From positions 1,798,001 to 1,862,000 of the forward strand of contig NZ_CP047393.1 in the NCBI RefSeq assembly GCF_009858175.1: a stretch of 64,000 nt of DNA, read 5' to 3'. Positions 26,235 to 52,798 of this stretch are shown in pieces. The translations under genes and the position numbers were made by a program. Origin of the DNA: Pontibacillus sp. HMF3514 (GTDB lineage: Bacteria > Bacillota > Bacilli > Bacillales > BH030062). The first letter of the stretch is position 1; each line of letters opens with the position of its first letter. The notes beneath the pieces were generated by a model. The model was not told the DNA's origin. It saw only the letters and a list, made by a program, of their open reading frames with translations, and ran no database searches.

Positions 26235-26946
26235 ATGGCAGTTATCTGGAATAAGCTGGTGCGGGGTGGTTCCGTTGCGTTTATGCAGTGCGGCGGGCTG
26301 TGGAACGGGTTGATTTTCCCCGGCCCCACACGACGTGGGGTCGTTCGATGTTGCTACAGGATGTAGCGCTCTTAGTCGAACTTCCTTGTTTATTTTACAG
26401 CTTCCTCGTCACTTCGTTCCTGCGGGATCTCGCTCGCCCTTTCTACCGGAGGAGTCAACCCGTTCCACAGCCCACCTTAGCCGAATCGTGATGAACGGAA
26501 CCGCAGTGATTATGGAGAGGTGATGCTTAAGGACATCTGTTCCGTTATTTGATCTTAATATGACTTTTATGAAGAGCTTACGGACATTTATTCCGTTATT
26601 TGCATCAAATCACCTTGAAAAAACCCAATTTGTCACAAATAAGGTACCATATGTCCGTAACGACTCTCGAAATGCCTTAAAAGTTCAAAATAACGGAACA
26701 GATGTCCGTAACGTTTATTGCTCAAGAAACTAGGGTCCGTTAATCTCCATAAAAGCAAAGGGGTGAGGGAAACGGCAAACTCCCGCGGTAGAAAGGGCAG
26801 ATGAGACCCCGCAAGGAGCGTAGCGTATGAGGAGGCTCAGCTGGTCTTCCGCAGGAGTATTGCCGTTTCACTGAACCCCTTATTCTTTTTCCAGCAACGG
26901 ACATCCACTGCACATTATCTCAATTTCAAGTCTTCCAGATAAGGGG
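26235..26946 (+). repeat. Composite interspersed element, copy 1
   Basis: The largest of four related elements, starting at ATGGCAGT. The left unit has outer arms GGTTCCGTT/AACGGAACC (26268, 26494) and a perfect 17-bp inner stem (26295-26311 with 26457-26473). It encloses an inverted core (26401-26455) plus an extra about 80-bp insert with CCCCAC/GTGGGG. The linker has a perfect 20-bp inverted repeat (26531-26550 with 26688-26707). The right unit has arms GTCCGTT/AACGGAC (26735, 26896) and AAACGGCAAACTCC pairing with GGAGTATTGCCGTTT, enclosing core 26779-26838. A small TTATCT/AGATAA hairpin ends it. No credible gene lies inside. Confidence 0.88.
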
Positions 26947-27075
26947 ACTAATCTTTAATAAGCCAAGTGTATATCAGTATTGGAACAGAACTCTTACCTA
27001 TCTGTTAATTTTCTAATTCAACTCGGCATGTCACCTTTATTTCGATCATATAGATAGAATAAAGGAGCGGATCGT

Positions 27076-27315
27076 ATGAGATATCGTGATTTAAGTGGAA
27101 AAGAAATCGTCGATGTTCGCCAGGGAGCTCGCCTGGGTGTGCTAGGGCAAACAGATCTTGAGATTGATCCAGTCAGCGGTAAAATAAAATCCTTTTTAGT
27201 ACCAAGTTACAAATGGTTTGGTATGAAAAAGGAAGGAGAAGAAGTACGAATCTATTGGAGAGATATTAAAAAGATTGGGGATGACATGATTATTATTGAT
27301 CCTCCTGACCATTAA
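27076..27315 (+). CDS. ymxH: YlmC/YmxH family PRC-barrel sporulation protein
   Basis: Small PRC-barrel-type protein of the YlmC/YmxH family, conserved in spore formers with no defined biochemical role. The 79 residues start MRYRDLSGKEIVDVRQGARLG after AAAGGAGCG and include the PRC signature DLEIDPVSGKIKSFLV. It has its own terminator. A sequence resembling a sigma-E type promoter (GCATGTC about 14 bases before CATATAGA, 27025-27055) lies upstream; this is weak. Confidence 0.9.
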   Translation: MRYRDLSGKEIVDVRQGARLGVLGQTDLEIDPVSGKIKSFLVPSYKWFGMKKEGEEVRIYWRDIKKIGDDMIIIDPPDH

Positions 27316-27321
27316 TGGAAG

Positions 27322-27350
27322 AGACCTGCATTTTGCGGGTCTTTTTTTTA
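27322..27350 (+). terminator. Intrinsic terminator after ymxH
   Basis: A 9-bp stem (AGACCTGCA with TGCGGGTCT, one wobble), loop TTT, followed by a run of T. Confidence 0.85.
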
Positions 27351-27442
27351 TGGAAAGTAATAAACCTCGTACCTCACATTTAACCCTCCATCAAAGAGCT
27401 TCCCAAAGTAAATCCTCTAAACTTATTCTAATAAGGACATTC

Positions 27443-27470
27443 ACCTTTCTTTTTCAAACCTCATAGGATA
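27443..27470 (+). promoter_or_regulatory. Candidate sigma-K promoter of dpaAB
   Basis: AC at 27443-27444, 17 bases, then CATAGGATA at 27462-27470, a perfect fit to the sigma-K consensus (AC, 16-17 bases, CATANNNTA). It is 46 bases before dpaA. In B. subtilis spoVF is transcribed in the mother cell by sigma-K, so position and function agree. Confidence 0.65.
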
Positions 27471-27515
27471 TGAAAGAATCATGCGACATTACTCGGTGTA
27501 AGGTGAGGTGAAATC

Positions 27516-28412
27516 ATGCTAACAGATTATAAAATCGCCATACTTGGCGGAGATGCAAGACAATTGGAAGTGATTCGTCGATTAAGCGAATGGGATGCCA
27601 CACTGTTTTTAGTCGGTTTTGATCAACTCGATCATGGCTTTACAGGGGCAAAACAATTAAGCATAGATGAAGTGGAACCTGAAAAACTTGATGCGGTGAT
27701 CCTTCCCGTACCTGGAACCAACCCAAAAGGTGTAATTGATACCATATTTTCTAATCAGTCATTAACGTTAACGAAAGAGTGGTTAAGTAAAACCCCTGAG
27801 CATTGCCTCGTGTTTACAGGGATTACGAATTCCTATCTCACTCAAATTACGCAAGAAGCCAATCGTTCGTTAATTCCACTATTTGATCGAGATGATGTAG
27901 CGATCTATAACTCTATTCCTACTGTGGAAGGAACCATTATGATGGCTATTCAAAATACAGACTTTACCATTCATTCTTCTGAAATTTTAGTTCTAGGCTT
28001 AGGTCGAGTAGGTATGAGTGTAGCACGCTCATTTTACTCGTTAGGGGCAAATGTGAAAGTAGGAGCAAGAAAGCCAGAAGATTTAGCTCGAATCCATGAG
28101 ATGGGATTAACATCTTTTAACATTCATGACCTTAAAGATCACACACATGGTTGTGACATTATTATCAATACAATTCCAGCTCCTATCGTATCGGCGGCTG
28201 TCATTCAAAATATGCCGTCTCACGCTTTGATTATAGACTTAGCCTCCAAACCAGGGGGGACAGATTTTCGATATGCTGAGAAAAGAGGAGTTAAAGCCTT
28301 GCTAGCTCCAGGATTACCGGGAATTGTCGCTCCGAAAACTGCAGGAAATATTTTGGCGAAAGTCATTACGAAGATTTTACTAAAAGAATTAGGCGAAAGG
28401 AGTTCTTTTTAA
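27516..28412 (+). CDS. dpaA: Dipicolinate synthase subunit A
   Basis: With DpaB it oxidises dihydrodipicolinate to dipicolinate (DPA), the calcium chelate of the spore core, in the mother cell. The 298-residue protein has an N-terminal Rossmann-like domain (ILGGDARQLEVIRRL, residues 8-22) and a second NAD(P)-binding domain with ILVLGLGRVGMSVARSF (about 158). The start follows AAGGTGAGGTG. The end overlaps dpaB by one base (TAATG). Its substrate comes from DapA, encoded 3 kb downstream. Confidence 0.96.
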   Translation: MLTDYKIAILGGDARQLEVIRRLSEWDATLFLVGFDQLDHGFTGAKQLSIDEVEPEKLDAVILPVPGTNPKGVIDTIFSNQSLTLTKEWLSKTPEHCLVFTGITNSYLTQITQEANRSLIPLFDRDDVAIYNSIPTVEGTIMMAIQNTDFTIHSSEILVLGLGRVGMSVARSFYSLGANVKVGARKPEDLARIHEMGLTSFNIHDLKDHTHGCDIIINTIPAPIVSAAVIQNMPSHALIIDLASKPGGTDFRYAEKRGVKALLAPGLPGIVAPKTAGNILAKVITKILLKELGERSSF

Positions 28413-29002
28413 TGGATTTATCAGGCAAAGTAATTGGGTTTGGCTTGACGGGGTCACATTGCACCTATGAAGCAGTTTTCCCTGAAATAGAAAGACTTGT
28501 AAAAGCAGGTGCTACCGTTGTTCCGGTTGTATCTTACACAGTACAGAAGACGGACACAAAATTCGGGGACGCTGCGGATCATTTAGAGAAAATTAAAGAG
28601 TTAACAGGAGAGAAACTAATTTCAACTATTCCTGAAGCTGAACCACTAGGACCCAAACGACCACTAGATTGTATGGTTATTGCTCCACTTACAGGGAATT
28701 CAATGAGTAAGTTTGCTAATGCACTCACAGACTCTCCTGTGCTTATGGCTGCTAAAGCTACGTTACGAAATGGAAACCCTGTTGTTTTGGGTATTTCAAC
28801 GAACGACGCCTTGGGATTAAACGGAGTAAACTTAATGCGTCTTATGGCTACTAAGAATATCTTCTTTATCCCATATGGCCAGGATGATTTTGTGAAAAAG
28901 CCAAATTCATTAGTGGCAGATATGACACGTTTACAAGAGACAGTGGAGTATGCATTAGAATTAAAACAAATCCAACCAGTTCTTATCCCTCATAAAGAGT
29001 AA
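28412..29002 (+). CDS. dpaB: Dipicolinate synthase subunit B
   Basis: Flavoprotein-fold subunit of dipicolinate synthase. It has 196 residues with VIGFGLTGSHCTYEAVFPEI at the N-terminus and the flavin-binding-like DCMVIAPLTGNSMSKFANAL in the middle. ATG overlaps the dpaA stop; AAAGGAG is upstream. A hairpin (ATCCCTCAT/ATGAGGGAT, 28985-29013) spans its stop codon but has no T run, so transcription may continue into asd. Confidence 0.96.
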   Translation: MDLSGKVIGFGLTGSHCTYEAVFPEIERLVKAGATVVPVVSYTVQKTDTKFGDAADHLEKIKELTGEKLISTIPEAEPLGPKRPLDCMVIAPLTGNSMSKFANALTDSPVLMAAKATLRNGNPVVLGISTNDALGLNGVNLMRLMATKNIFFIPYGQDDFVKKPNSLVADMTRLQETVEYALELKQIQPVLIPHKE

Positions 29003-29101
29003 AAATGAGGGATGTCGGTATCAACAAATCCCGAGTCTGTGGTAAAATAAAATTTAATCTAATGTAATAAAAAAGCATTGTATGGAAGGGAGAAACTATA
29101 A

Positions 29102-30157
29102 ATGGCAAACAATCATCAATATCATGTAGCAATCGTAGGAGCAACAGGTGCGGTAGGTCAAAAAATGCTTGAAACTCTAGAAGATCGTAATTTCCCTATA
29201 CAAACATTAACGTTATTATCATCAAAACGTTCTGCTGGTAAGACAGTACGTTTTCAAAATAAAGATATCACGATTCAAGAAGCTACTCCTGAGAGTTTTG
29301 AAGGTGTAGATATCGCTCTATTCTCTGCAGGTGGTGGCGTAACAAAAGCATTAGCTAATGAAGCGGTTAAACGAGGTGCAGTTGTTGTAGATAACACAAG
29401 CGCTTATCGTATGGATCCAGAAGTGCCTCTTGTCGTACCTGAGGTGAATGCTGATGATCTTAAGGAGCATAAAGGGATTATCGCGAATCCGAACTGCTCA
29501 ACAATCCAAATGGTGGCTGCTCTTGAGCCGTTGCGTAAGGCGTATGGTCTAAGCCGTGTGATTGTTTCTACTTATCAGGCAGTATCAGGCGCTGGTAATG
29601 AAGCAAACGACGAATTGAAGAACCAATCTGAAGCTTATCTTAAAGGAGAAGATCTTTCAGCTGAGATTTTACCTGTAAAAGGGGATGAACGTCATTATCC
29701 AATTGCGTTTAATGCGCTTCCTCAAATTGATAAGTTCCAAGACAACGGATATACGTTTGAAGAGATGAAGATGATCAATGAAACGAAAAAAATTATGCAT
29801 GCGGATAATCTTCCTGTTGCCGCAACATGCGTAAGACTTCCTTTCTTCACTTCCCATGCGGAAAGTGTTTATATTGAGGTAGAAAAGGATAATGTTAGCG
29901 TAGATGATTTCAAGCAACAGTTATCAAACGCACCTGGTATCGTCTTAGAAGATGATCCGTCTACACAAAGTTATCCTACGCCATTAAGTGCTGAAGGGAA
30001 GCGTGATGTGTTTGTAGGTCGTATCCGTAAAGACCTCGACAATGATAAAGGATTCCACCTTTGGGTAGTGTCTGATAACCTCTTAAAAGGAGCAGCTTGG
30101 AATTCAGTTCAAATTGCTGAAGAGCTTATTGAAAAACAACTGCTTACAAAGAAATAA
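29102..30157 (+). CDS. asd: Aspartate-semialdehyde dehydrogenase
   Basis: Reduces aspartyl phosphate to aspartate semialdehyde, the branch point to lysine, DAP, DPA, threonine and methionine. It has 351 residues. NADP-binding [14 protein letters not shown] is near the N-terminus, the catalytic Cys132 lies in [11 protein letters not shown], and the substrate motif [16 protein letters not shown] is present. It is first of asd-dapG-dapA, spaced 22 and 26 bases. Confidence 0.97.
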
Positions 30158-30179
30158 AAAGAAGTTTTGAGGTGTCCAC

Positions 30180-31394
30180 ATGAAAGTATTAGTTCAAAAG
30201 TTTGGAGGCACTTCAGTTAAGGATGCTGAAGGACGACAACTTGCTATGGGGCATGTGCAAACAGCCCTTGATGAAGGTTATAAAGTAGTTGTAGTTGTAT
30301 CAGCTATGGGCAGAAAAGGTGCTCCATATGCTACGGATACATTACTAGAATTGATTAACTTTCCAAATACAAATGTTTCAAAGCGAGAGGAAGATCTCCT
30401 CACATCATGTGGAGAGGTCATTTCGTCCATTGTGTTTTCAAATGAATTGAATGAAAAAGGTTTGAAAGCCACAGCTCTAACTGGAGCACAAGCAGGCTTC
30501 CTTACTACAGAAGATTTTACAGAAGCTAAAATAAAAGCCATGCAGCCTGAGCGTATTAAGCAGGAGTTCGAAACAAATGATGTTGTGGTCGTTGCTGGAT
30601 TCCAAGGGCAGACAGAAAAAGGTGATGTGACCACAATCGGCCGCGGGGGTAGTGATACTTCTGCTGCTGCTTTAGGCGCTGCATTGCAATCAGAATATAT
30701 TGATATTTTCACAGATGTAGAGGGCATCATGACAGCTGACCCACGAATTGTAGAGGCTGCTAGACCTCTAGCTGTGATGACCTATAATGAAATTGTGAAT
30801 TTAGCTTATCAAGGGGCAAAAGTTATTCATCCAAGAGCCGTCGAAATCGCTATGCAAGCTAAAGTACCACTGCGTGTGCGTTCAACGTATTCCTCAGATT
30901 TTGGAACTCTTGTTACGCAATCTAGAAGTGATGGAGATGGAAAAGACATTCCTGACCGTCCGGTAACAGGAATTGCCCATTTATCTGGGATTGCACAGGT
31001 GAAGGTTACAGCAAAAGAAGAGCCTTATCAGCTCCAGTCTGATGTATTTAAATCAATGGCTGAAGCGGGGATTTCAGTTGATTTTATCAACATTTCTCCT
31101 ATGGGAGTTGTCTATACAATTCCTGATGCTTATACCGAAAAAGCAACAGCTATTTTAAATAAATTAGGCTACATGCCTGAAATCACGCATAATTGTGCTA
31201 AGGTATCAACAGTGGGTGCTGGCATTACAGGTGTTCCTGGTATTGCGGCAAAGATTGTTCATACTTTGACAGATGCAGGCGTACAGATCTTACAATCAGC
31301 AGACAGTCATACGACAATCTGGGTGCTTGTGAAAGACGAAGATCTAGTGAAAGCTGTTAATGCATTACACCAAACGTTTGAACTTAACTTGTAA
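30180..31394 (+). CDS. dapG: Aspartokinase I (DapG type)
   Basis: Phosphorylates aspartate, the first step of the aspartate pathway. It has 404 residues, the catalytic domain starting VQKFGGTSVKDAEGR, with GRGGSDTSAAALGAAL and FTDVEGIMTADPRIV. Two ACT domains (about 265-400) carry feedback control. The context (spoVF, asd, dapA) identifies it as the DAP-responsive DapG isozyme rather than LysC. No lysine riboswitch is visible upstream. Confidence 0.94.
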   Translation: MKVLVQKFGGTSVKDAEGRQLAMGHVQTALDEGYKVVVVVSAMGRKGAPYATDTLLELINFPNTNVSKREEDLLTSCGEVISSIVFSNELNEKGLKATALTGAQAGFLTTEDFTEAKIKAMQPERIKQEFETNDVVVVAGFQGQTEKGDVTTIGRGGSDTSAAALGAALQSEYIDIFTDVEGIMTADPRIVEAARPLAVMTYNEIVNLAYQGAKVIHPRAVEIAMQAKVPLRVRSTYSSDFGTLVTQSRSDGDGKDIPDRPVTGIAHLSGIAQVKVTAKEEPYQLQSDVFKSMAEAGISVDFINISPMGVVYTIPDAYTEKATAILNKLGYMPEITHNCAKVSTVGAGITGVPGIAAKIVHTLTDAGVQILQSADSHTTIWVLVKDEDLVKAVNALHQTFELNL

Positions 31395-31420
31395 GGTTAA
31401 CTTGAAAGGAGATGGAGGCC

Positions 31421-32290
31421 ATGAACTTTGGAAAAGTATTAACTGCAATGGTTACCCCATTTGATAATCGTGGAAATCTCGATTTAGAAAAAACAACTCA
31501 TTTAGTAGAATATTTAATTAATAATGGATCTGACGGTCTTGTCATAGCAGGGACGACAGGTGAATCTCCAACGCTAACATCAGAAGAGAAAGTCGCTTTA
31601 TACAATCACGTTGTAAAAGTGGTAAATAAGCGAATTCCTGTAATTGCAGGTACTGGTAGTAATAATACACATGCATCAATAGAGCTGACCAAAAAGGCAG
31701 AGCAAGCTGGTGTAGATGGTATAATGCTTGTTGCTCCTTATTACAACAAACCAAGCCAAGAAGGTCTTTATCAACACTTCTCAAGTATTGCTAAGGAAAC
31801 ATCTTTACCAATCATGCTATATAACATACCAGGGCGTTCAGTTATTAACGTAGACGCAGATACGATTGTTCGTTTATCTGAAATTGACAATATTGTTTCT
31901 GTAAAAGATGCTAGCGGCGATCTTGATCAAATGACAGATGTTGTAGCAAGAACAAGTGATGACTTTTCTGTGTACACTGGTGAAGACAGTATGACACTTC
32001 CATCAGTAGCTGTAGGAGCAACGGGCGTTGTTTCTGTATCCGCTCACGTGATTGGAAATGAAATGCAGGAAATGCTAGGAGCACTTGAAAATGGAGAGGC
32101 AAAAAAAGCTGCAAAACTTCATCAAAAAGTTGTGCCAGTTATGAAAGCATGCTTCATGGCACCATCTCCAACCCCTGTTAAAACGGCTCTTCAGATGAAA
32201 GGGATGGACGTTGGAGGCGTTAGACTTCCACTTATTCCTCTATCAGCAGAAGAGCGTAATACGTTAAGTAATGCATTGAATAGTCTGTAA
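31421..32290 (+). CDS. dapA: 4-hydroxy-tetrahydrodipicolinate synthase
   Basis: Condenses pyruvate with aspartate semialdehyde, the first committed step to DAP, lysine and spore dipicolinate. ATG 31421 gives 289 residues, MNFGKVLTAMVTPFD, aligned with relatives; ATG 31412 is the alternative. AAAGGAG lies nine bases upstream. TIM-barrel motifs: AGTTGESPTLTSEEK, MLVAPYYNKPSQEGLYQHF, LYNIPGRS and the Schiff-base lysine (about 162) in VSVKDASGDL. Confidence 0.97.
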   Translation: MNFGKVLTAMVTPFDNRGNLDLEKTTHLVEYLINNGSDGLVIAGTTGESPTLTSEEKVALYNHVVKVVNKRIPVIAGTGSNNTHASIELTKKAEQAGVDGIMLVAPYYNKPSQEGLYQHFSSIAKETSLPIMLYNIPGRSVINVDADTIVRLSEIDNIVSVKDASGDLDQMTDVVARTSDDFSVYTGEDSMTLPSVAVGATGVVSVSAHVIGNEMQEMLGALENGEAKKAAKLHQKVVPVMKACFMAPSPTPVKTALQMKGMDVGGVRLPLIPLSAEERNTLSNALNSL

Positions 32291-32312
32291 TTCATATAAT
32301 CAGAAATTTTAT

Positions 32313-32350
32313 AAACACATGGGGTTCCATTGGGATCTCATGTGTTTTTT
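32313..32350 (+). terminator. Intrinsic terminator after dapA
   Basis: AAACACATGGGGTTCC pairs with GGGATCTCATGTGTTT through several G-T wobbles, then T run. The composite repeat starts 48 bases later. Confidence 0.82.
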
Positions 32351-32397
32351 ATTGACTTGAAGTTAGTAGGGTCTGAAGGTTATTGCTCCATTATTAA

Positions 32398-32953
32398 ATG
32401 GAAGGATTGTTGAATAAGCTAGTGCGGGGTGGTTCCGTTACGTTTATGCAGTGCGGCGGGCTGTGGAACGGGTTGCTTTCCCCGGAAGACCGATCGAGCT
32501 TCCTCGTCACTTCGTTCCTGTGGGATCTCGCTCGCCCTTTCTACCGGAGGAGTCAACCCGTTCCACAGCCCACCTTAGCCGGATGGTGACTAACGGAACC
32601 GCAGCTATAGTAAGGTTTTCTGATTTAGGATATGTGGTTAAATCATATATGCATCAAAGTGATCTAAAGCCTTATATGTAAAGGTGTTTAGTATCTGAAA
32701 TAATTTTTCTCTTAAGCAAGAAATAAATGAATTCAGCCATGGGTCCGTTAATCTACATATAAGCAAGGGGTGAAGGAAACGGCAAACTCCAGTGGTAGAA
32801 AGGGCAGTTGAGACCCCGCAGAGAACGGAGTGAACGAGGAGGCTCAGCTGGTCTTCCACAGGAGTATTGCCGTTTCTCTGACCCCCTTACTCCTCACAAA
32901 AGCAACGGACTGCTCTCAACTAATCTCTATTCCAATTCTTCCGTATTAGGGGG
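32398..32953 (+). repeat. Composite interspersed element, copy 2
   Basis: Left unit: outer arms GGTTCCGTT (32431) and AACGGAACC (32592), 17-bp perfect inner stem (32458-32474 with 32555-32571), inverted core 32499-32553. The linker (32600-32740) resembles copy 4, not copies 1 and 3. Right unit: GTCCGTT (32743) with AACGGAC (32904), AAACGGCAAACTCC (32777-32790) with GGAGTATTGCCGTTT (32861-32875), core 32786-32845, lower-stem variant GTGG/CCAC. The end hairpin is CTAAT/ATTAG. No gene is contained. Confidence 0.88.
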
Positions 32954-33077
32954 ATATCGCCGAAGATGGATTATAAGCTTTAACTCTTATTGATAGCATG
33001 GAGAGACTTCCATTTTCGTGCATGCTTCGTCCAAACTTCGCTCATACTAAGCGAAAGTGTGAAAGGAGCGATCATGT

Positions 33078-33821
33078 ATGGGTAATGAAGATCAACCAAA
33101 CAAGGATCAGGACCAACAACAACAGCAACAACAGCAGTCTGCTTTAATGCAAAAAATTCAACAGTTAGGGCAGTCCAATGTGCCACAAGCGGCAGACTCT
33201 AATGTTCATATTTTACCAATTATTGGTCAGATAGAAGGGCATGTTCAGTTACCTCCTAAAAACAAAACAACAAAATACGAGCATTTAATCCCACAACTTA
33301 TTGCGATTGAACAAAATCCAAAGATCGAAGGACTCATTGTATTGTTAAATACGGTAGGAGGGGATGTTGAAGCTGGTCTTGCTATTTCAGAGATGATCGC
33401 ATCAATATCAAAACCAACCGTATCGATTGTTTTAGGTGGAGGCCATTCCATTGGAGTTCCAATTGCTGTTGCAACGGATTATTCCTTTATCGTTGAAACA
33501 GCAACGATGACCATTCACCCAGTACGTATGAACGGTCTTGTTATAGGTGTTCCACAAACATTTGAGTACTTAGAGAAAATGCAAGAACGTGTTTTAAATT
33601 TTGTAACTGGAAATTCAAATGTTGATGAAGAGAAGTTAAAAGACTTGATGTTTGCAAAAGGGAACTTGACAAGAGATATCGGTACTAACGTAATTGGTGA
33701 CGATGCAGTGAAATACGGTTTGATTAATGAAGTTGGCGGTGTAAGTCACGCAATCAAAAAACTTAATGAAATGATTGAAGCTAACAAATCAAATGACGGG
33801 GAACAGACGGTGATCCAATAA
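33078..33821 (+). CDS. tepA: ClpP-fold protease TepA
   Basis: ClpP/crotonase-fold protein, B. subtilis translocation-enhancing protein TepA (YmfB), proposed to degrade signal peptides or assist secretion. The 247 residues have the nucleophile serine (about 124) in [15 protein letters not shown] and the histidine-containing [12 protein letters not shown]. The N-terminus has a run of eight glutamines (about 13-20), a low-complexity extension before the fold. The start is ATG 33078 after AAAGGAGCG. It overlaps ylzJ by one base. Confidence 0.93.
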
Positions 33822-34045: not shown

Positions 34046-34053
34046 ACAAACTG

Positions 34054-34081: not shown

Positions 34082-34087
34082 AGACAA

Positions 34088-34114: not shown

Positions 34115-34137
34115 GTCATAGGAATAGAGGTGATGAA

Positions 34138-42719: not shown

Positions 42720-42760
42720 GCACATGTGATTTCTTAAGAGAAATCACATGTGCTTTTATT
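42720..42760 (+). terminator. Intrinsic terminator after nupQ
   Basis: A perfect 15-bp stem (GCACATGTGATTTCT with AGAAATCACATGTGC), loop TAAG, then TTTTATT. Confidence 0.92.
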
Positions 42761-42767
42761 CAGTTTT

Positions 42768-43360
42768 ATGGCAGTAATATTGAATAAGCTGGTGCGGAGT
42801 GGTTCCGTTGCTTTTATGGAGTGCGGCGGGCTGGGAAACGGGCTGCTTTCCCCGGACGAACGATCGAGCCTCCTCATCCGCTACGCTTCTTGCGGGGTCT
42901 CGCTCGCCCGTTTTTCCGGAGGAGTCAGCCCGTTTCCCAGCCCACCTTAGCCGAATGATGATTAACGGAACCACAGCGATATTAAGAAGACGATGCTTAA
43001 GGACATTTGTTCAGCTAATGTCTTTTTAATGATCTTTTTGAAGAGCTTACGGACATTCATCCCGTTATTTGCTCCAAATCATCTTTAAAAGTCCATTTTG
43101 TCACAAATAAGGTACCATATGTCCGCAAGGGTTAGAACTCATACAACTAGGGTCCGTTAACTTCCACAACCTTAAGGGGTGAAGGAAACGGCAAACTCCC
43201 GCGGTAGAAAGGGCAGATGAGACCCCACAGAGAACGGAGTGAACGAGGAGGCTCAGCTGGTCTTCCGCAGGAGTATTGCCGTTTCACTGAACCCCTACCT
43301 CTCATAAAAGCAACGGACTGCTCTCAACTTATCTCGATTTCGAGTCTTCCAGATAAGGGG
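42768..43360 (+). repeat. Composite interspersed element, copy 3
   Basis: It starts at ATGGCAGT. Left unit: outer arms GGTTCCGTT (42801) and AACGGAACC (42964). The inner 17-bp stem (42828-42844 with 42927-42943) differs from copies 1 and 2 at three positions on both arms, always keeping the pair. The inverted core is 42866-42925. The linker resembles copy 1. Right unit: GTCCGTT (43152) with AACGGAC (43312), AAACGGCAAACTCC (43186-43199) with GGAGTATTGCCGTTT (43270-43284), core 43195-43254. It ends in a TTATCT/AGATAA hairpin. No gene is contained. Confidence 0.88.
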
Positions 43361-43371
43361 GCTTTTGTTAA

Positions 43372-43399
43372 TTAACATTTATAAAGTATCGCCTATACT
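43372..43399 (+). promoter_or_regulatory. Candidate sigma-A promoter of the ymfF operon
   Basis: TTAACA (43372-43377), 16 bases, TATACT (43394-43399), each a 5/6 match. It begins 11 bases after the composite element. A leader hairpin (AGCTTTTCTAT with ATAGAAAGGCT, 43466-43490) lies before the ymfF ribosome site. Confidence 0.6.
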
Positions 43400-44814: not shown

Positions 44815-46103
44815 TGAATACACAACATTATGAGCAAATTGGAGAAACGCTTTATTCCAAGAAACTTGATAACGGATTAGAAGTCTATTTATTACCGAAA
44901 CGCGAAATGGCTAAAACATTTGGGGTCTTTACAACAGAATATGGTTCCATTGATCAAACCTTTTCCCCCATAGGAAAAAGAGAGCGAGTAACGGTACCTG
45001 AAGGGATTGCACACTTTTTAGAGCATAAGCTTTTTGAGAAAGAGGATCGAGATGTATTTCAAGACTTCACGAAGCTAGGAGCATCTCCAAATGCGTTTAC
45101 GTCTTTCACGAGTACAGCTTACTTGTTCTCAGCAACCCAACATATCCAAGAAAATGTGAGAACTCTACTTGATTTTGTTCAAGATCCTTATTTTTCTGAT
45201 GAATCAGTTGAAAAAGAAAAGGGTATCATCGCACAGGAAATTCGCATGTATGATGACCAACCTGATTGGCGAGCATTTTTTGGAACGATCCAAAGCTTGT
45301 TCCAAAACCATCCTGTAAAAGTAGATATCGCAGGGACTGTGGATTCCATTCAAGATATTACAAAAGAAGATCTCTATACGTGTTATAACACGTTTTATCA
45401 TCCATCCAACATGACCTTCTTCGTTGCAGGGAATTTTGACCCTGAGAGTATGATGAAGTTGATTGAAGAGAATCAAAATGCTAAGGAATTTGAAGCTACA
45501 CCTACCATAGATCGAGCTTATCCAGATGAGCCGAAAGGTGTAGCAGAGGCTCATAAGGTTATTGAAATGCCTGTATCTGTTTCCAAATGTTTAGTGGGTG
45601 TTAAAGAGGATACAAAATACTTGAATGAAGATACATTCTTGAAGACGGATATGATGAAGAATATGGTGTTGGATCATTTCTTCTCTAAGAGTGGAGAATT
45701 TTTTGAAGCACTTTATAATGAAGATTTAATTGATGATTCTTTCCATTTCGAAACACATCTTGATAAATCCTTTGGCTTCACGATAATAGGCGGAAATACA
45801 CGTAACCCTGAAAAATTAAGTGAACGTGTAAAGGGAATGCTTCATGAGCTAAAGGGTCGTAATTTAACAGACGAAGAGTTTAATCGTATGAAAAGGAAAA
45901 AGATCGGACAATTTATGCGATCCATGAACTCTCTAGAGTTTATTGCAACAACGTTTGTTCAATATCGTCACCTTGGTATTGATCTATTTCAGGTTTTACC
46001 AGCCATTGAATCCTTAACAAAGGATGAGGTTGAAGAACACCTTAAAGCGTGGATTGATGAAGATCGTATCGCAGTAACAGAAGTACGTCCTTCTGATAAG
46101 TAG
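44814..46103 (+). CDS. ymfH: M16 zinc protease YmfH
   Basis: Catalytic M16 subunit, 429 residues. The inverted zinc motif HFLEH is at 67-71 in PEGIAHFLEHKLFEKED. The distal metal glutamate lies in EKEKGIIAQEIRMYDDQPDW about 75 residues later. TAATG overlap couples it to ymfF. The physiological substrate is unknown; related pairs process small peptides such as bacteriocin or cofactor precursors. Confidence 0.93.
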   Translation: MNTQHYEQIGETLYSKKLDNGLEVYLLPKREMAKTFGVFTTEYGSIDQTFSPIGKRERVTVPEGIAHFLEHKLFEKEDRDVFQDFTKLGASPNAFTSFTSTAYLFSATQHIQENVRTLLDFVQDPYFSDESVEKEKGIIAQEIRMYDDQPDWRAFFGTIQSLFQNHPVKVDIAGTVDSIQDITKEDLYTCYNTFYHPSNMTFFVAGNFDPESMMKLIEENQNAKEFEATPTIDRAYPDEPKGVAEAHKVIEMPVSVSKCLVGVKEDTKYLNEDTFLKTDMMKNMVLDHFFSKSGEFFEALYNEDLIDDSFHFETHLDKSFGFTIIGGNTRNPEKLSERVKGMLHELKGRNLTDEEFNRMKRKKIGQFMRSMNSLEFIATTFVQYRHLGIDLFQVLPAIESLTKDEVEEHLKAWIDEDRIAVTEVRPSDK

Positions 46104-46115
46104 AAAGGAAGTAAG

Positions 46116-46838
46116 ATGGGGAAAACATGCCTAATTATAGGTGCTAGTGGAGATATTGGAGCTTCTATTGCCATATCTTTTGCAGAACAAGGGTATAAAT
46201 TAATTCTTCACTATCATCAAAATGAAGAAGCGATTAAGAAAATAAAGGAACAGATACCTCATGGATCTGTTCTCCAAATTATTCAATCGGATTTGAGTTC
46301 GGGAATAGGTATAGAGAGTCTTTGTGAGACACTCGAACACCCTGTTGATACAGTGGTATTCTCAAGTGGCGTTAGCCAAGTAAAGCTCTTCCAAGACGTA
46401 ACAGATGGAGATATGGACATGATGTATAATGTTCATGTAAAAGCTCCTTGGAAAATTACGCGTCACCTTTTACCATCCATGATTCAGAATAAAGCTGGTA
46501 ATATTATTGTGATCTCTTCTATTTGGGGAGATGTGGGTGCAAGTTGTGAAGTGTTGTATTCAACGGTTAAAGGTGCTCAGGATAGTTTTATCAAATCACT
46601 TGCTAAAGAAGTGGGGCCCTCTGGAGTTTCTGTGAATGGGATTCGTCCTGGTATTATTGAAACAAAGATGAATCGTCACTTGAGTGAGGAAGAAAAACAA
46701 GAGATTATAGAAGAAATTCCTGTGAATAGAATGGGGCAAGTAGAAGATATTGCTCATACTGCATTATTTTTAGCGGATGACCGTTCTTCTTATATACAAG
46801 GTGAATTGATCAATGTCACAGGGGCTTGGAATGGATGA
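46116..46838 (+). CDS. ymfI: Short-chain dehydrogenase/reductase YmfI
   Basis: NAD(P)-dependent SDR related to 3-oxoacyl-ACP reductases. It has 240 residues, the cofactor motif GASGDIGASIA (about 9-19), the catalytic YSTVK (about 153) with a serine in VISSIWGD, and RPGIIETKM. The usual NNAG is changed to SSGV. It lies 12 bases behind ymfH. The substrate cannot be told from sequence; a role in fatty-acid elongation is doubtful since FabG is normally in another operon. Confidence 0.9.
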   Translation: MGKTCLIIGASGDIGASIAISFAEQGYKLILHYHQNEEAIKKIKEQIPHGSVLQIIQSDLSSGIGIESLCETLEHPVDTVVFSSGVSQVKLFQDVTDGDMDMMYNVHVKAPWKITRHLLPSMIQNKAGNIIVISSIWGDVGASCEVLYSTVKGAQDSFIKSLAKEVGPSGVSVNGIRPGIIETKMNRHLSEEEKQEIIEEIPVNRMGQVEDIAHTALFLADDRSSYIQGELINVTGAWNG

Positions 46839-46919
46839 TGACTTTTCCTTCTTTCATGAATAAAAGCGGATGTCTTTTCAAAAGATAATCCTGTAAGTTG
46901 AATTAAGGAGGAATTAGAC

Positions 46920-47177
46920 ATGTCTGTATTAGATAACTGGGATTCCTGGAAAGACTTTTTAGGGGATCGCCTACACCAAGCACAAGGTGATGGAATGAAC
47001 GATCAAGCCGTTTCTAACCTTGCCTATGAAGTAGGTGACTATTTAGCAAACCAAGTAGATGCGAAAAATGACCAAGAGGCTATGCTTCGTGATCTATGGA
47101 GTGTTGCTTCTCAAGAAGAACAACACGCAATTGCTAATATGATGGTAAAACTTGTACAAAATAACGGAACGAAGTAA
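46920..47177 (+). CDS. ymfJ: DUF3243 protein YmfJ
   Basis: Small acidic soluble protein of the DUF3243 family, 85 residues, starting MSVLDNWDSWKDFLGDRLHQ after AAGGAGGAATT. It appears all-helical, with no membrane segment. Function is not known. It is the last gene before a terminator. Confidence 0.88.
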   Translation: MSVLDNWDSWKDFLGDRLHQAQGDGMNDQAVSNLAYEVGDYLANQVDAKNDQEAMLRDLWSVASQEEQHAIANMMVKLVQNNGTK

Positions 47178-47210
47178 AAGCGAGAGGGTCTTCCTCTTGC
47201 TTTTTCTTTT
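47176..47210 (+). terminator. Intrinsic terminator after ymfJ
   Basis: A 12-bp stem (AAAAGCGAGAGG with CCTCTTGCTTTT, one wobble), loop GTCTT, then TCTTTT. It overlaps the stop codon by two bases. Confidence 0.85.
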
Positions 47211-47415
47211 GTTATGAAACTAATTGGAGATGGTGTTCGTCTTATGAAATAGCCGCTCTTTTCTGAAATCTTTCCTTACTACCTGATAACTTCTGCAAAA
47301 AATGTGAAGTTTTTGGACCATATTAGCCTTTTCTAATATTTCAATTTGCTTTATGATAGGAATAACTAACATTTTCATTATCTACGTTTAGGTTTAATGA
47401 GGAAGGAGTTGTGAT

Positions 47416-48207
47416 ATGGATAAGAAGGAATGGTACCTGGAATATGAAATTAAGTATAATCGTCCAGGGTTGCTGGGTGATATATCCTCCTTGTTAGGAA
47501 TGCTATCCATTAATATCGTTACGATTAATGGTGTTGAAGATTCTAGACGAGGAATGCTTTTATTATGCAAACATGATGAACAAATTAATCGTTTGAAATC
47601 AATTTTACAAACGATGGATACGATCTCAGTTACGAAATGTCGTCGTCCTAAATTGCGTGATCGCTTAGCCGTGAGACACGGGCGTTATATACATAGTGAC
47701 ATTGATGATAAAAAAACATTTCGTTTTGTCCGTGAAGACCTTGGTCTTTTAGTAGATTTTATGGCTGAATTGTTCAAAAAAGACGGACATAAACTTATTG
47801 GAATTAGAGGGATGCCTCGAGTAGGAAAGACAGAATCTATAGTAGCTGCAAGTGTATCTGCCAATAAAAAATGGCTTTTTGTATCAAGTACATTACTTAA
47901 ACAAACGATACGTAGTCAATTAATCGAGGATGAGTACTCCCCTGAGAATCTCTATATTCTCGACGGAATTGTTTCGACAAAAAGAGCAAATGAAAGACAT
48001 TGGCAACTTGTACGAGAGATTATGCGCCTTCCAGCAACTAAGGTTGTTGAACATCCAGATATGTTCGTACGAGAAACGGAATATAAATTAGGTGATTTCG
48101 ACTACATCATCGAGCTACGCAATAGTGAGGATGAAGAAATTACATACGAAACAGTAGATAAGTCAGAATTTAATCAAGATGATGGCTTTTCCATGTTTGA
48201 CTTTTAA
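47416..48207 (+). CDS. ymfK: DUF3388 protein YmfK (ACT-like plus P-loop-like)
   Basis: Conserved Bacillaceae protein of unknown function, 263 residues. The N-terminus (about 5-80, YEIKYNRPGLLGDISSLLGM) resembles an ACT ligand-binding domain. The centre has GIRGMPRVGKTES (about 135), which fits a Walker A motif. An acidic tail ends it. This reads as a ligand-sensing NTPase, but that is inference. It lies 19 bases before rodZ. Confidence 0.85.
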   Translation: MDKKEWYLEYEIKYNRPGLLGDISSLLGMLSINIVTINGVEDSRRGMLLLCKHDEQINRLKSILQTMDTISVTKCRRPKLRDRLAVRHGRYIHSDIDDKKTFRFVREDLGLLVDFMAELFKKDGHKLIGIRGMPRVGKTESIVAASVSANKKWLFVSSTLLKQTIRSQLIEDEYSPENLYILDGIVSTKRANERHWQLVREIMRLPATKVVEHPDMFVRETEYKLGDFDYIIELRNSEDEEITYETVDKSEFNQDDGFSMFDF

Positions 48208-48225
48208 AATGGATGGTGTTTAAAG

Positions 48226-49176
48226 ATGGAAATCGGTGCTAGGTTAAAAGAAGCAAGAGAAGCAAAGAATATGTCTCTTGATGATGTCCAAAATGAAACG
48301 AAAATCCAAACCCGTTATCTACAAGCCATTGAAAAAGGCAATTTCAGTATTATGCCGGGTAAGTTCTACACAAGAGCATTTATTCGGCAATATGCTGAAG
48401 CGGTTGGATTAGATCCCGATTTAATCATGGAAGAACATGCGAATGAGCTTCCAAGTTCAAGTGAAGAAGAATATATTCAATACACAAGATTACAACGACA
48501 TAAAGACGAAACATCCACTAAGGGATCTGCTATCTTTACATTTTTACCTAAATTTATTATCGGTTTGCTTGTAATTGGTATTCTTGTAGTTGGGTATATT
48601 TTCTATCAAAAAACAATTGATTCAAATCCTGCTGACACACCTGCTCAGGATGAAGACGGCGTAAGTGATGAAGTCTTCAGAGATGAGGATGGAGATTCAG
48701 GTAACTCGGATAGCTCTGGCGATAGTAGTGAAGGGGATCAGAATAATTCTGATCAAACAAACGAAAATAACGGAGAAGATAATCAAGGGGATACACAAGA
48801 AACTCAAGAACCTGAAGAACCTAAGCAAGAAATTAATGTGGTAGAAAAAGGGTCTGGGGCAGAACCTGAATCTACTTTAGAATTGGTTAATGCAGATGAA
48901 TTAAAATTTAGAGCAGAAATTATACAAGAAAATGATGAAAGCTTTTTAGGTGTTCGTAACGGAAAAGGAAAAGAGTTCTTCGGGAAAATCCTTAACTCAG
49001 ACACCCCTGAAATGAGTTTAGACCTTACTGGAGAAGAACGTATTCGAATCCGTGTTGGTCGAGCCAATCAAACCAACATCTTTATAAATGATCAGAAGCT
49101 AGAGTATCCAGTGAATCCAGAAGAAAATATTGTTCAAACCATTTGGATTAACGTAAAAGGTTCATCAGTACAATAG
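48226..49176 (+). CDS. rodZ: Cytoskeletal membrane protein RodZ (YmfM)
   Basis: Links MreB filaments to the wall-synthesis complex. It has 316 residues: a cytoplasmic helix-turn-helix domain (about 1-75, ARLKEAREAKNMSLDDVQNE), one membrane span (about 105-127), a long acidic Asp/Glu/Ser/Asn linker outside (about 135-205), and a C-terminal DUF4115 beta domain (about 210-316). The length and acidity of the linker suggest adaptation to high salt. Confidence 0.93.
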   Translation: MEIGARLKEAREAKNMSLDDVQNETKIQTRYLQAIEKGNFSIMPGKFYTRAFIRQYAEAVGLDPDLIMEEHANELPSSSEEEYIQYTRLQRHKDETSTKGSAIFTFLPKFIIGLLVIGILVVGYIFYQKTIDSNPADTPAQDEDGVSDEVFRDEDGDSGNSDSSGDSSEGDQNNSDQTNENNGEDNQGDTQETQEPEEPKQEINVVEKGSGAEPESTLELVNADELKFRAEIIQENDESFLGVRNGKGKEFFGKILNSDTPEMSLDLTGEERIRIRVGRANQTNIFINDQKLEYPVNPEENIVQTIWINVKGSSVQ

Positions 49177-49184
49177 TCTAAGGA

Positions 49185-49217
49185 AAAAGAGTCATCTTGA
49201 AAAAGATGACTTTTTTC
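49185..49217 (+). terminator. Intrinsic terminator after rodZ
   Basis: A 14-bp stem (AAAAGAGTCATCTT with AAGATGACTTTTTT, one wobble), loop GAAA, T run. Confidence 0.88.
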
Positions 49218-49265
49218 TAGTCAATCATTATACGTTTCACGGGAACAGAAAATGGAGGAAAAATT

Positions 49266-49844
49266 ATGAATATACCAAATCGCATTACGATATCACGCAT
49301 ACTATTGATTCCCATCATTATCTTTTTACTTTCAGTGCCATTAGATTGGGGTACTTGGGACATTGGTGAAAGCTCTTTACCTGTATCTCACTTTGTGGCA
49401 GCCATTCTATTTATAATCGCTTCCATTACAGACTGGGTTGATGGTTACTACGCTAGAAGGTATAACCTTGTCACAAATTTAGGGAAGTTTTTAGATCCCT
49501 TAGCAGATAAATTGCTTGTTTCTGCAGCTTTAATCTCTCTTGTAGAACTTGACATGGCTGCGGCATGGTTAGTGATCTTGATTGTAAGCCGAGAATTTGC
49601 TGTGACTGGCTTACGTTTAGTAGCAGCTGGTGAAGGGATTGTTCTTGCAGCTGGACAAATGGGGAAATTAAAAACATGGATTCAAATTATTGCAGCTTCA
49701 GCGCTTCTATTACACAACTTTCCGTTTTCATTTGTTGGTTTTCCATTCGCAACAATTTCTTTATGGGCTGCGATGCTCATAACAGTTGCTTCCGGTGTAG
49801 AATACTTTGTGAAAAACTGGCATGTGATGGAGGGGTCTAAGTAA
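49266..49844 (+). CDS. pgsA: Phosphatidylglycerophosphate synthase
   Basis: Membrane CDP-alcohol phosphatidyltransferase that makes phosphatidylglycerol phosphate from CDP-diacylglycerol, the product of CdsA at 4 kb. It has 192 residues, about four to six spans. The family motif DG-2-AR-8-G-3-D-3-D is complete (DWVDGYYARRYN then GKFLDPLADKLL, from about residue 56). ATG follows GGAGG. The stop overlaps the cinA start. Confidence 0.95.
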   Translation: MNIPNRITISRILLIPIIIFLLSVPLDWGTWDIGESSLPVSHFVAAILFIIASITDWVDGYYARRYNLVTNLGKFLDPLADKLLVSAALISLVELDMAAAWLVILIVSREFAVTGLRLVAAGEGIVLAAGQMGKLKTWIQIIAASALLLHNFPFSFVGFPFATISLWAAMLITVASGVEYFVKNWHVMEGSK

Positions 49845-51103
49845 TGGGAAATGGTGTGAAAGCAGAAATTATTGCAGTTGGTACAGAATTGCTTTTAGGC
49901 CAAATCTCCAATACAAATGCTCAATGGATTTCTGAGAAACTGGCATTGCATGGAGTCAACATATTTCATCATAGTGTTATTGGAGATAATTACGATCGCT
50001 TAACCTCTCTTTTCTCTTTAGCTCAGGATCGGTCAGATTTAGTTATCGTTACAGGGGGACTTGGTCCAACCGATGATGATTTAACACGTGAAGCGGCTTC
50101 TGAGATCTTAAAAAAGCCAATTTTTGAAGATCAAGAGACAATGAGAAATATTGAGTCTTATTATGAACAAAATGGTCAATCCATGAGCCCTAACAACCGA
50201 AAGCAAGCACGAATTTTTGAAGGGGCCGATATTTTAAAAAATGATGTTGGTATGGCTCCAGGCATGGCTGTTCAAAAGGATGAAACACTTTGGATATTCT
50301 TACCTGGCGTACCTAGAGAAATGAAAGCGATTATGGAGCAAAGTGGTTTTCCATATATTCAAAACACATTTCCTAATCAAAGCCCTATCTTTTCAAGGAT
50401 GCTTCGTTTTATAGGTATTGGTGAGTCTCAACTTGAGCATGAGTTAAGAGATCTTATTTCAGCACAGCAAAACCCTACCATTGCTCCTTTAGCTAGTAAT
50501 GGTGAAGTTGCTATACGTCTTACTGCAAAAGCTGAGTCAGAAACAAAAGCAAAGGAACTTGTACAAGCAACAGAGCAGCAGATTTACGAACGTGTTGGAG
50601 ATTTTGTATATGGATATGACGAGGATTCTATTGAAGAAACAGTTTTTAAACTTTTAAAAGAAAAGAATCTCTCTATATCTGCTGCTGAAAGTTTAACAGG
50701 TGGACAATTTGTAGAGCGTCTTGTTACATTAGAGGGTGCTTCAAGCGTTTGTAACGGTGGAGTAGTATGTTATGCCAAAAGCGTGAAAGAAAACTTGCTA
50801 GAGGTTCCAAAATTAATTATCAGTCATTATGGAACGGTTAGTGAAGCTTGTGCAGTATCTATGGCCGTTAATGTTGCAAAGAAACTTGAATCAAAAATTG
50901 GAATTAGTTTCACAGGTGTCGCAGGGCCTGATGAGGTAGAAGGGCAGTCAGCAGGAACAGTCTACATCGGGTTATATGTTGATGGAGAATCACCTTTTGC
51001 GAAACGTTTCTATATTAATGGAGATCGCGACATGGTGCGCACTAGAGCTGTAAAAAAAGGATATGAACTTTTATATCATCATTTAAAGCAAAAAAATTAT
51101 TAA
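49844..51103 (+). CDS. cinA: CinA, competence/damage-inducible protein
   Basis: 419 residues. The N-terminal MoCF-like domain (1-170, EIIAVGTELLLGQISNTNAQ, VTGGLGPTDDDLTREA) resembles ADP-ribose pyrophosphatase enzymes. The C-terminal PncC-like NMN deamidase domain (about 255-415) has SAAESLTGGQF and GISFTGVAGPDE. It is coupled to pgsA by a one-base overlap and lies upstream of recA, the standard order. Confidence 0.95.
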   Translation: MGNGVKAEIIAVGTELLLGQISNTNAQWISEKLALHGVNIFHHSVIGDNYDRLTSLFSLAQDRSDLVIVTGGLGPTDDDLTREAASEILKKPIFEDQETMRNIESYYEQNGQSMSPNNRKQARIFEGADILKNDVGMAPGMAVQKDETLWIFLPGVPREMKAIMEQSGFPYIQNTFPNQSPIFSRMLRFIGIGESQLEHELRDLISAQQNPTIAPLASNGEVAIRLTAKAESETKAKELVQATEQQIYERVGDFVYGYDEDSIEETVFKLLKEKNLSISAAESLTGGQFVERLVTLEGASSVCNGGVVCYAKSVKENLLEVPKLIISHYGTVSEACAVSMAVNVAKKLESKIGISFTGVAGPDEVEGQSAGTVYIGLYVDGESPFAKRFYINGDRDMVRTRAVKKGYELLYHHLKQKNY

Positions 51104-51195
51104 AATTATATTTTGAAGCTGTTTTCAAAGCCTAAAATGACAAGATTCATAGAGGGAAATTGAAAAGTTATTCCTTCATACTCATTAAAAAATGG

Positions 51196-51209
51196 GGAAC
51201 GTTTATTCG
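51196..51209 (+). promoter_or_regulatory. LexA (DinR) box upstream of recA
   Basis: GGAACGTTTATTCG fits the Bacillus SOS consensus CGAACNNNNGTTCG at 8 of 10 defined positions. It lies nine bases before the -35. Confidence 0.7.
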
Positions 51210-51217
51210 TATTTTTC

Positions 51218-51246
51218 TTGTTAAATTGAATAAAAAGAGTTATGAT
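51218..51246 (+). promoter_or_regulatory. Sigma-A promoter of recA
   Basis: TTGTTA (51218-51223), exactly 17 bases, TATGAT (51241-51246), 31 bases before the GTG start. It lies just downstream of the LexA box, so SOS repression is expected. Confidence 0.75.
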
Positions 51247-51277
51247 TGTAATAGTTCAATCTTAAGGGGGAAGAAAC

Positions 51278-52315
51278 GTGAGTGATCGTAAACAAGCGCT
51301 CGACATGGCGTTACGTCAAATAGAAAAGCAATTCGGTAAAGGCTCTGTAATGAAGTTAGGGGAGCAAGCCGAGAAGAAAATAAATACTGTACCAAGTGGT
51401 TCCTTGGCATTAGATGTTGCTTTAGGTGTTGGTGGTTATCCACGTGGTCGTATCGTTGAGATCTACGGACCTGAATCTTCTGGTAAAACAACTGTTGCTT
51501 TACATGCAATTGCAGAAGCACAACGTCAAGGTGGACAAGCAGCATTTATTGATGCCGAGCATGCTCTAGACCCCGTTTATGCACGTGCATTAGGCGTAGA
51601 TATTGAAGAATTACTTCTATCCCAGCCTGATACAGGAGAACAAGCTCTAGAGATTGCAGAAGCACTAGTTCGTAGTGGTGCAATTGATATGATCGTAATC
51701 GACTCTGTTGCAGCGCTTGTTCCAAAAGCGGAGATCGAAGGTGAAATGGGAGATTCCCACGTAGGTCTTCAAGCTCGTCTAATGTCTCAAGCTTTACGTA
51801 AGCTTGGTGGTGCCATTAACAAATCGAAGACAACAGCTATTTTCATTAACCAAATCCGTGAAAAAGTCGGTGTCATGTTTGGTAACCCAGAAACAACTCC
51901 TGGTGGACGTGCGCTGAAATTCTACTCTTCAGTTCGCCTTGAAGTACGTCGTGCGGAAACATTAAAACAGGGGAATGAAATGGTTGGTAATAAAACGAAG
52001 CTCAAAGTCGTGAAAAATAAGGTAGCACCTCCATTTAAACAAGCTGAAGTAGATATCATGTACGGTGAAGGTATTTCAGCTGAAGGTGAGCTTCTTGATA
52101 TCGGTACAAACTTAGATATTATTACGAAGAGTGGTTCCTGGTACTCGTATAATGACGAGCGCTTAGGCCAAGGTCGTGAAAATGCTAAGCAATTCTTCAA
52201 AGAGAATCCAGAAACGTATCACGAAATCCATGCAAAAATCCGTCAGCATTACGGAATGGATGAAACTCCAGATGAAGAAGAATCTGAAGAAAACCAAAGT
52301 AGTTTAGACGTTTAA
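51278..52315 (+). CDS. recA: Recombinase RecA
   Basis: ATP-dependent strand-exchange protein and SOS co-protease. GTG 51278 after AAGGGGGAAG gives 345 residues. Walker A is GPESSGKTT (about 65-73), Walker [14 protein letters not shown]. The DNA-binding loop has [20 protein letters not shown]. The C-terminal tail is acidic, as usual. It is controlled by a LexA box and ends with its own terminator. B. subtilis has pbpX after recA; here the composite repeat occupies that place. Confidence 0.98.
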
Positions 52316-52318
52316 TAT

Positions 52319-52352
52319 ATCCCCCCTGCCAAATAGGTAGGGGGGATTTTTA
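52319..52352 (+). terminator. Intrinsic terminator after recA
   Basis: A 12-bp stem (ATCCCCCCTGCC with GGTAGGGGGGAT, one wobble), loop AAATA, then TTTTATT. Confidence 0.92.
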
Positions 52353-52382
52353 TTGAGTGGCTTAATTGAAGTATTCAATAAT

Positions 52383-52798
52383 ATGGCAGTGCTGGTGCGG
52401 GATGGTTCCACAGCCCACCTTAGCCGAATGGTGAATAACGGAACCGCAGCTATCGTAAGGTTTTCTGATTTAAAATCTGTGGTTAAATCAAATATTCCTT
52501 AAAGTGATCTAAAGCCTTATATGTAGAGGGGGTTAGTATCTAAAATAAAATCACCTTAAGCATGATATTAAATGATCTCATCCTTGGGTCCGTTAACCTC
52601 CATAACAGCAAGGGGTGAAGGAAACGGCGAACTCCAGTGGTAGAAAGGGCGGCCGAGACCCCGCAGGGAACGAAGTGAGTGAGGAGGCTCGGACGGTCTT
52701 CCACAGGAGTATCGCCGTTTCAATGAACCCCTTACTCTTTTTTCGGCAACGGACCTCTACCGCACGTTATCTCGAAACCAAGTCTTCAAGATAAGGGG
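52383..52798 (+). repeat. Composite interspersed element, copy 4 (left unit deleted)
   Basis: It starts at ATGGCAGT. GGTTCC (52404) runs straight into ACAGCCCACC, the distal side of the left stem, so about 128 bp present in copy 2 is missing, including the left core. Only AACGGAACC (52437) remains of the outer partner. The linker resembles copy 2. The right unit is complete: GTCCGTT (52588) with AACGGAC (52748), AAACGGCGAACTCC (52622-52635) with GGAGTATCGCCGTTT (52706-52720), core 52631-52690, lower-stem variant GTGG/CCAC. It ends in TTATCT/AGATAA. Confidence 0.85.

Follow-up and report, generated by a model that had tools for sequence, protein, structure and literature searches.

Dispersed two-hairpin elements of Pontibacillus share their end sequences with cassette arrays that contain a Xer-type recombinase gene

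We analyzed a window of 64,000 nucleotides from the salt-loving bacterium Pontibacillus sp. HMF3514 (contig NZ_CP047393.1, positions 1,798,001 to 1,862,000), in which the initial annotation had reported four copies of an element built from two inverted, homologous GC-rich cores. Each of these composite elements lies between two end sites with inverted arms, and the same end sequence recurs between the genes of cassette arrays elsewhere in the genome, where a gene for a Xer-type tyrosine recombinase stands among the sites. The ends can enclose different interiors, both within the genome and at orthologous sites of a related species. The genome of the window (G000) is a single contig of 3.98 Mb; G001, G002 and G004-G007 are congeners, and L numbers denote individual stretches or loci.

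Four composite elements and their end sites

Reading all four copies and a repeat search of the window bore out the reported positions. Including the end sites, the full extents are 26223-26961 (copy 1), 32386-32967 (copy 2), 42756-43375 (copy 3) and 52371-52813 (copy 4, with the start taken by eye). An intact copy begins with a left end site and a left hairpin unit (minus strand) and, after a middle part, continues with a right hairpin unit (plus strand) and a right end site:

26223..26256, plus strand: copy 1 left end site; outer arm, TGGCAG, inner arm TTATCTGGAATAAGC
26268..26502, minus strand: copy 1 left hairpin unit; bracket GGTTCCGTT...AACGGAACC, containing the Bacillaceae-1 RNA at 26325-26391
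26541..26733, no strand: copy 1 middle; direct and inverted ACGGACAT.TGTTCCGT words, by eye
26734..26902, plus strand: copy 1 right hairpin unit; GGTCCGTT...AACGGAC
26915..26961, plus strand: copy 1 right end site; TTATCTC..CAAGTCTTC..ATAA-GGGGAC-outer arm; the congener site is without the element
32386..32420, plus strand: copy 2 left end site; diverged, with GGAAG
32431..32600, minus strand: copy 2 left hairpin unit
32742..32910, plus strand: copy 2 right hairpin unit
32921..32967, plus strand: copy 2 right end site; in the congener an interior of inverted order adjoins the end
42756..42789, plus strand: copy 3 left end site; TTATTCAGTTTTA-TGGCAG-TAATATTGAATAAGC
42801..42972, minus strand: copy 3 left hairpin unit
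43151..43318, plus strand: copy 3 right hairpin unit
43329..43375, plus strand: copy 3 right end site; TTATCTCGATTTCGAGTCTTCCAGATAA-GGGGGC-outer arm; the congener has the same type
52371..52394, plus strand: copy 4 left end site; outer arm and GGCAG
52404..52445, minus strand: copy 4 left-unit remnant; hairpin lost
52587..52754, plus strand: copy 4 right hairpin unit
52767..52813, plus strand: copy 4 right end site

The right units of the window copies show 71-84% identity to that of copy 1 (family D1 of the repeat search), and several inverted pairs of left and right units are 70-77% complementary, in agreement with the proposed architecture of two inverted homologous units. The word GGTAGAAAGGGC occurs six times exactly in the window, each time within the reported cores; with up to two mismatches there are 10 matches versus 3.2 expected, and none of 100 shuffles reaches 10. 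Copies 1-3 have both units; most of the left hairpin of copy 4 was lost between short repeats, and the congener's copy (L274) retains it.

For the right core, RNAalifold predicted 42 pairs from nine sequences, one of them partial. Seven of these pairs are preserved by two-sided changes in at least one sequence, but the covariation term is +0.15 kcal/mol, so that the predicted fold has slight support from covariation. The Rfam family Bacillaceae-1 RNA (RF01690) matches at 26325-26391, within the left core of copy 1; this 67-nt module was seen in a few copies and is cargo rather than the element itself. Similar sequence was seen by eye within the cores of L003, L027 and L030 and of the congener loci L090-L092, and a second match in the window (62929-62995) lies within a short tandem duplication that begins at 62871. 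The middle of the longer copies (e.g. 26541-26733) contains several near-palindromes of the ACGGACAT.TGTTCCGT kind, direct and inverted; their words reappear in the bracket sequences of the two hairpin units.

At each end, six central bases separate an outer arm, whose consensus is close to TTATTCCA, from an inner arm. The left end follows TTATTC..TTA.A-TGGCAG-TTAT.T.GAATAA, whereas the right end, read inward, follows TTATTCCATTAAA-GCCCCC-TTAT.TGGAAGACTTGG.TCGAGATAA; thus the centre is TGGCAG at the left and GGGGGC at the right. GGCAG is present in 31 of the 33 copies that we read, the other two (copy 2 and L012) having GGAAG. The small hairpin that had been described as trailing each unit corresponds to an imperfect palindrome, one at either end of the element.

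A dispersed family with differing interiors

A search of the whole of G000 with one copy as query gave 82 matching pieces among the 40 scored of 151 candidate places. The 33 copies that were read (L001-L030 and the three other window copies) are nearly all best matches to the full composite and hence biased toward it. All of them have the left part followed by the right part in the same order, with the left hairpin missing from copy 4 and the right end from L028. According to a crude open reading frame (ORF) rule, 14 and 10 of these copies lie between same-strand genes and nine between convergent genes, while none lies between divergent genes. A replication-strand bias of the copies, judged by hand, was weak and was dropped.

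A less biased sample was obtained with the left-end pattern, which has 51 matches in G000, nine of them already read; the remaining 42 places were fetched. A right end lies 195-773 bp from the left end in 37 of them. Among the other five, L291, L302 and L324 have no right end in the stretch, the right-end match of L295 was false and was removed by eye, and L325 is a chance match. Two inverted cores occupy the interior of 25 of the 37 elements; the mostly independent units at random spacing that a chance clustering would predict were not observed. Three further interiors have the right core only, one has the left core only, and eight have no core by pattern. The two-hairpin composite is therefore the commonest interior, but it is not the sole one (4 of 37 with one core, 8 with none by pattern): single-hairpin and tandem-repeat interiors lie between the same ends. 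Two of the eight core-less elements (L292 and L307) were fully read and consist of tandem repeats of about 20 bp (GGGTAGGCGACGGAATCGCTC-like), as also found in G002 (L064, L068, L271). In a short element, L284 (G000 C1:183999-185199), the left core passes directly into the 3' part of the right unit, as if it were a recombination product of two inverted homologous units.

With at least 50 left ends of the first type and 22 of a second type (L005 and others), G000 has 70 or more elements with the same ends, as befits the interspersed family that had been proposed. Elsewhere, the left-end pattern has 38 matches in the congener G002 and no more than five in each of seven further genomes searched. 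Composites are also present in G004-G007, one locus with two cores was found in G001, and single cores were seen outside the genus in five genomes, of which one belongs to the same family and four belong to other families. Among the named genomes scanned, the right inner arm was found in 60 stretches, all from Pontibacillus marinus or P. yanchengensis, in a set from which the nearest relatives may be absent. G002 appears to be P. marinus, since the flank of L188 reads the same as that of L062.

Of 21 element sites tried in G002, 20 were located (L029 was not found). The same interior type is present at six of them (L001, L011, L014, L018, L022 and copy 4), with internal deletions at L014 and L018 and with L022 and copy 4 visible from the left only. 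Ten sites have another interior type, either inverted unit order or tandem repeats (L003, L005, L006, L007, L008, L013, L019, L024, L026 and copy 2); the L026 ortholog was typed from its left end alone, and the interiors of the L024 and copy 2 orthologs were read. No element is present at the remaining four (L002, L016, L017 and copy 1). Site-specific variants of the outer arm are common to both species while the interior differs, for example in the pairs L003/L061 and L007/L068.

Cassette arrays and a Xer-type recombinase gene

The inner arm of the elements recurs in G000 among small genes at about 322.7-349.7 kb (array 1) and 2365.5-2375.5 kb (array 2), where it stands between the array genes together with a GGGCGC centre. 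This match of element ends to cassette-array sites is additional to the reading in the initial annotation. A regular-expression listing gave 47 array sites in seven stretches of five genomes, with a near-constant distance between inner arm and centre; G000 has 14 and 5 of these sites and G001 has 11 and 5. We built a profile from 32 dispersed right ends and no array sequences. Four array stretches of G000 and G001 contain 38 matches to it at E<=0.01, with a best E of 4.4e-11 and with possible double counting of palindromic sites; the best E was 0.15 in four control regions of G000 and 4.1 in shuffled arrays. The pattern AAGTCTTCN4-7GGGSGC has 104 matches in G000, array and dispersed, versus none for the reversed pattern; it has 94 matches in G002 and was found in 31 of 199 genomes. 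Array starts are weakly matched by a left-end profile from five G002 elements (E 0.0003 to 0.02), and the same profile matches a site in G104, a genome of another family, with E=1.6e-6. The G104 sites use a CGGAGC centre, and the site sequence may differ between genomes.

Most array ORFs of G000 are on the strand of the sites; the exceptions are an opposed pair with a sigma factor and, in array 2, also two insertion sequence (IS) copies. The latter (L227) are two copies of a transposase gene pair, IS3-like by eye, at C1:2368020-2369139 and 2372345-2373464. The scan covered 20 proteins: the two 407-aa integrases at the edges of array 1 and 18 others encoded in the array itself. The families found among the 18 include GNAT, HAD/PNK3P, HIT, histidine phosphatase, NIF3, kinase, sigma factor and barstar, while seven of the 18 proteins, plus one cut piece, had no family assigned. 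Anti-phage models had no match in six array 1 proteins. Array 1 starts with a 2375-aa RHS-repeat protein (L224:3058-10185) and ends with a barstar-like gene (L225:9296-9628), and thus the arrays may store immunity genes. Further GGGCGC sites at G000 C1:1110997-1115910 probably mark another, third array. Genes rather than hairpins were found in five P. marinus stretches that have the same arm; the opposite end lies 1.3-2.3 kb away in four of them, and none is found within 3 kb in L194. G000 has no array 3' of the gene that precedes the P. marinus array locus L177.

Within one G000 array, with a site on each side, lies a gene (C1:337109-337951) encoding a 280-aa tyrosine recombinase, in which the catalytic R, K, HxxR, H and Y were recognized by eye. 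The protein barely passes the XerA model NF040815 (220.4 bits, cut-off 220) and falls far below the cut-offs of the integron-integrase models (TIGR02249, 103.1 bits vs 265; PRK15417, 62.2 vs 435); its best solved chains are XerD (1a0p) and XerC-like (4a8e). G000 has two further genes of XerC and XerD size, which are probably XerC and XerD. Near the start palindrome of array 2, a stretch is 60% identical to the 280-aa recombinase over 67 residues. The two 407-aa integrases were rejected as candidates for the enzyme. Among the stretches compared, the only full-length match to the first is a protein of the P. marinus stretch L194; that protein is 61% identical to the second, so that both look like island neighbours.

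Matches to the 280-aa recombinase with E<=1e-55 were found in 48 of 199 relatives, four of them at only about 40% identity and several others as fragments. Homologs lie near such sites in G001, G002, G175, G176 and G104. In G175, a candidate for an attI-like primary site, a 60-bp palindrome with a GGGCAG centre, lies about 100 bp 3' of the recombinase gene and is followed by array sites; a shorter GGCAGGATTG.GGAAG is found near the gene in G176 and G088, with none clear for G000. The homologs of G088, G158 and G136 have weak sites at most nearby, and the more distant ones in G074, G120, G107 and G078 have no convincing site. The sequence TTTGAAATAATTGGTATTAAG is conserved 3' of most recombinase genes in L259, L260, L261, L262, L263 and L264 and also occurs elsewhere in these loci; it could be a promoter or a part of the primary site.

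Candidate explanations and related systems

We lean, with modest confidence, toward the reading that the repeats are non-coding mobile units that end in integron-like recombination half-sites and are exchanged by a lone Xer-type recombinase. The enzyme would bind the inverted arms and exchange strands at the 6-bp centre, and cassettes would exit as circles and enter array or dispersed sites. By pairing the sites, it would excise gene cassettes from arrays and insert them there, while hairpin pairs, single hairpins and tandem repeats would be non-coding cargo inserted or swapped at the 70 or more scattered sites, with insertion 3' of genes being tolerated. That a single recombinase acts on both array and dispersed sites we infer, as we do its choice of strand and of new sites. 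A broader proposition, to which we give even chances, is a Bacillales integron-like system with a stand-alone Xer-type recombinase and its own site class (inner arm plus GGGCGC), whose non-coding cassettes in Pontibacillus occupy at least 70 chromosomal sites and have their interiors swapped, thus forming a genome-wide dispersed integron.

A number of observations weigh against exchange by this recombinase. The left and right centres differ from each other, so that the two ends could not recombine by a simple double-strand exchange. The best match of the G000-type left-end profile in arrays has an E of only 0.17, and the scanned array stretches of G000 and G001 contain no hairpin-class cores. 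Predicted folds after array sites have a mean z of -2.36 (21 of 35 below -2), compared with -0.26 for dispersed right ends (4 of 33). The congener has no element at L016, where divergence hides whether the outer arms pre-existed, and no clean empty site fixes the crossover. At the exchanged sites, both ends are seen in four of ten cases and one end in six, the congener contig stopping there. The distribution of recombinase and sites also disagrees: 38 of the 48 recombinase-positive genomes are without the site pattern (10 have it), and 21 of the 31 genomes with the pattern have no recombinase match. G005 has composites and no site-pattern match, hence composites can exist without these ends. 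Furthermore, in G004-G007, the four congeners with two-core composites, the recombinase was not found at E<=1e-55.

The last observation suits an alternative that we regard as unlikely, namely that the elements are old, fixed interspersed repeats whose interiors were replaced by ectopic gene conversion, with past site capture explaining the shared sequence and no enzyme acting now. It is also consistent with the identity of up to 96-99% that L002 and L003 share with copy 3 within G000, and with the G002 ortholog of copy 3, which matches in pieces at 85-88%. However, mutually replacing interiors share just 20-40 bp or so at their ends, which would be too short for ordinary homologous conversion, the type differs at 10 of 16 occupied orthologous sites, and the left-end profile still matches the G104 site in another family.

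Tens of copies with inverted similar ends, missing at four G002 sites, would also be expected of a miniature inverted-repeat transposable element (MITE), a non-autonomous DNA transposon that would owe its movement to a DDE transposase not seen here. We consider this quite improbable, since no target duplication was seen by eye at the assumed ends, of which the exact boundary is not fixed, and the swapped interiors would be unexplained. Palindromic empty target sites gave 12 forward matches in nine genomes versus 15 for the control, a result that speaks against the MITE and against recombinase-mediated exchange alike. No transposase copy was seen between such ends among 61 matches, of which only 23 have an identified opposite end; the five long stretches that were read are gene arrays. 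The initial annotation had likened the family to repetitive extragenic palindromic (REP) sequences and bacterial interspersed mosaic elements (BIME), which would be mobilized by a REP-associated tyrosine transposase (RAYT) of the Y1 type. The hairpins do occur as inverted pairs, and Y1 matches (PF01797) were found in 14 of 15 genomes searched. A likeness by descent is nevertheless very improbable, because the sole Y1 gene of G000 (L119, C1:3433847-3434173), like its ortholog in G002, has a different, unrelated REP on either side, AAGTGCCTGACCCCCAC. A loose-pattern scan of 21 Y1 loci gave no convincing core or end, and G014 has a core but no Y1 match.

Integrons are known to include ORF-less cassettes and secondary (attG) sites. 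As in integrons, the small genes of the system lie in arrays, mostly on one strand and separated by a recurring site; the locus encodes a tyrosine recombinase, there are non-coding cassettes, and sites are scattered over the genome. Unlike them, its recombinase is Xer-like and below the integron-integrase cut-off, its gene lies itself between array sites, at least 70 sites are dispersed in G000, and GTTRRRY was found at none of the 47 array sites within six bases of the centre start. As these two defining tests of classical integrons failed (integrase cut-off and GTTRRRY), we do not file the system as a classical integron. Xer/dif systems and pdif modules have inverted arms around a 6-bp centre. 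The element ends resemble them in their two inverted arms of about 11 bp around such a centre, and the recombinase just reaches the XerA model; in contrast to Xer/dif, there are two other genes of XerC and XerD size, many sites, and two different centres per element. Interspersed intergenic hairpins in inverted pairs are a feature shared with REP/BIME and RAYT (PMC3733652), but the units here are about 170-235 nt rather than 20-40 and have end sites of their own.

Among the open-licence papers listed we recognized no description of this system, and Bacillus names have no occurrence in PMC7923331. Integrons are reported to be exceedingly rare among Firmicutes, where IntegronFinder 2.0 gives a single complete case (PMC9024848). 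If the proposed system is real, its different recombinase class and different site class would help to explain this gap, and attC models would likely have missed it. It would also be a concrete source of gene turnover in Bacillales and, in one genus, a route of spread for a class of Bacillaceae hairpin repeats. Separately from these elements, the Y1 gene at L119 with its own REP AAGTGCCTGACCCCCAC constitutes a REPtron in the same genome.

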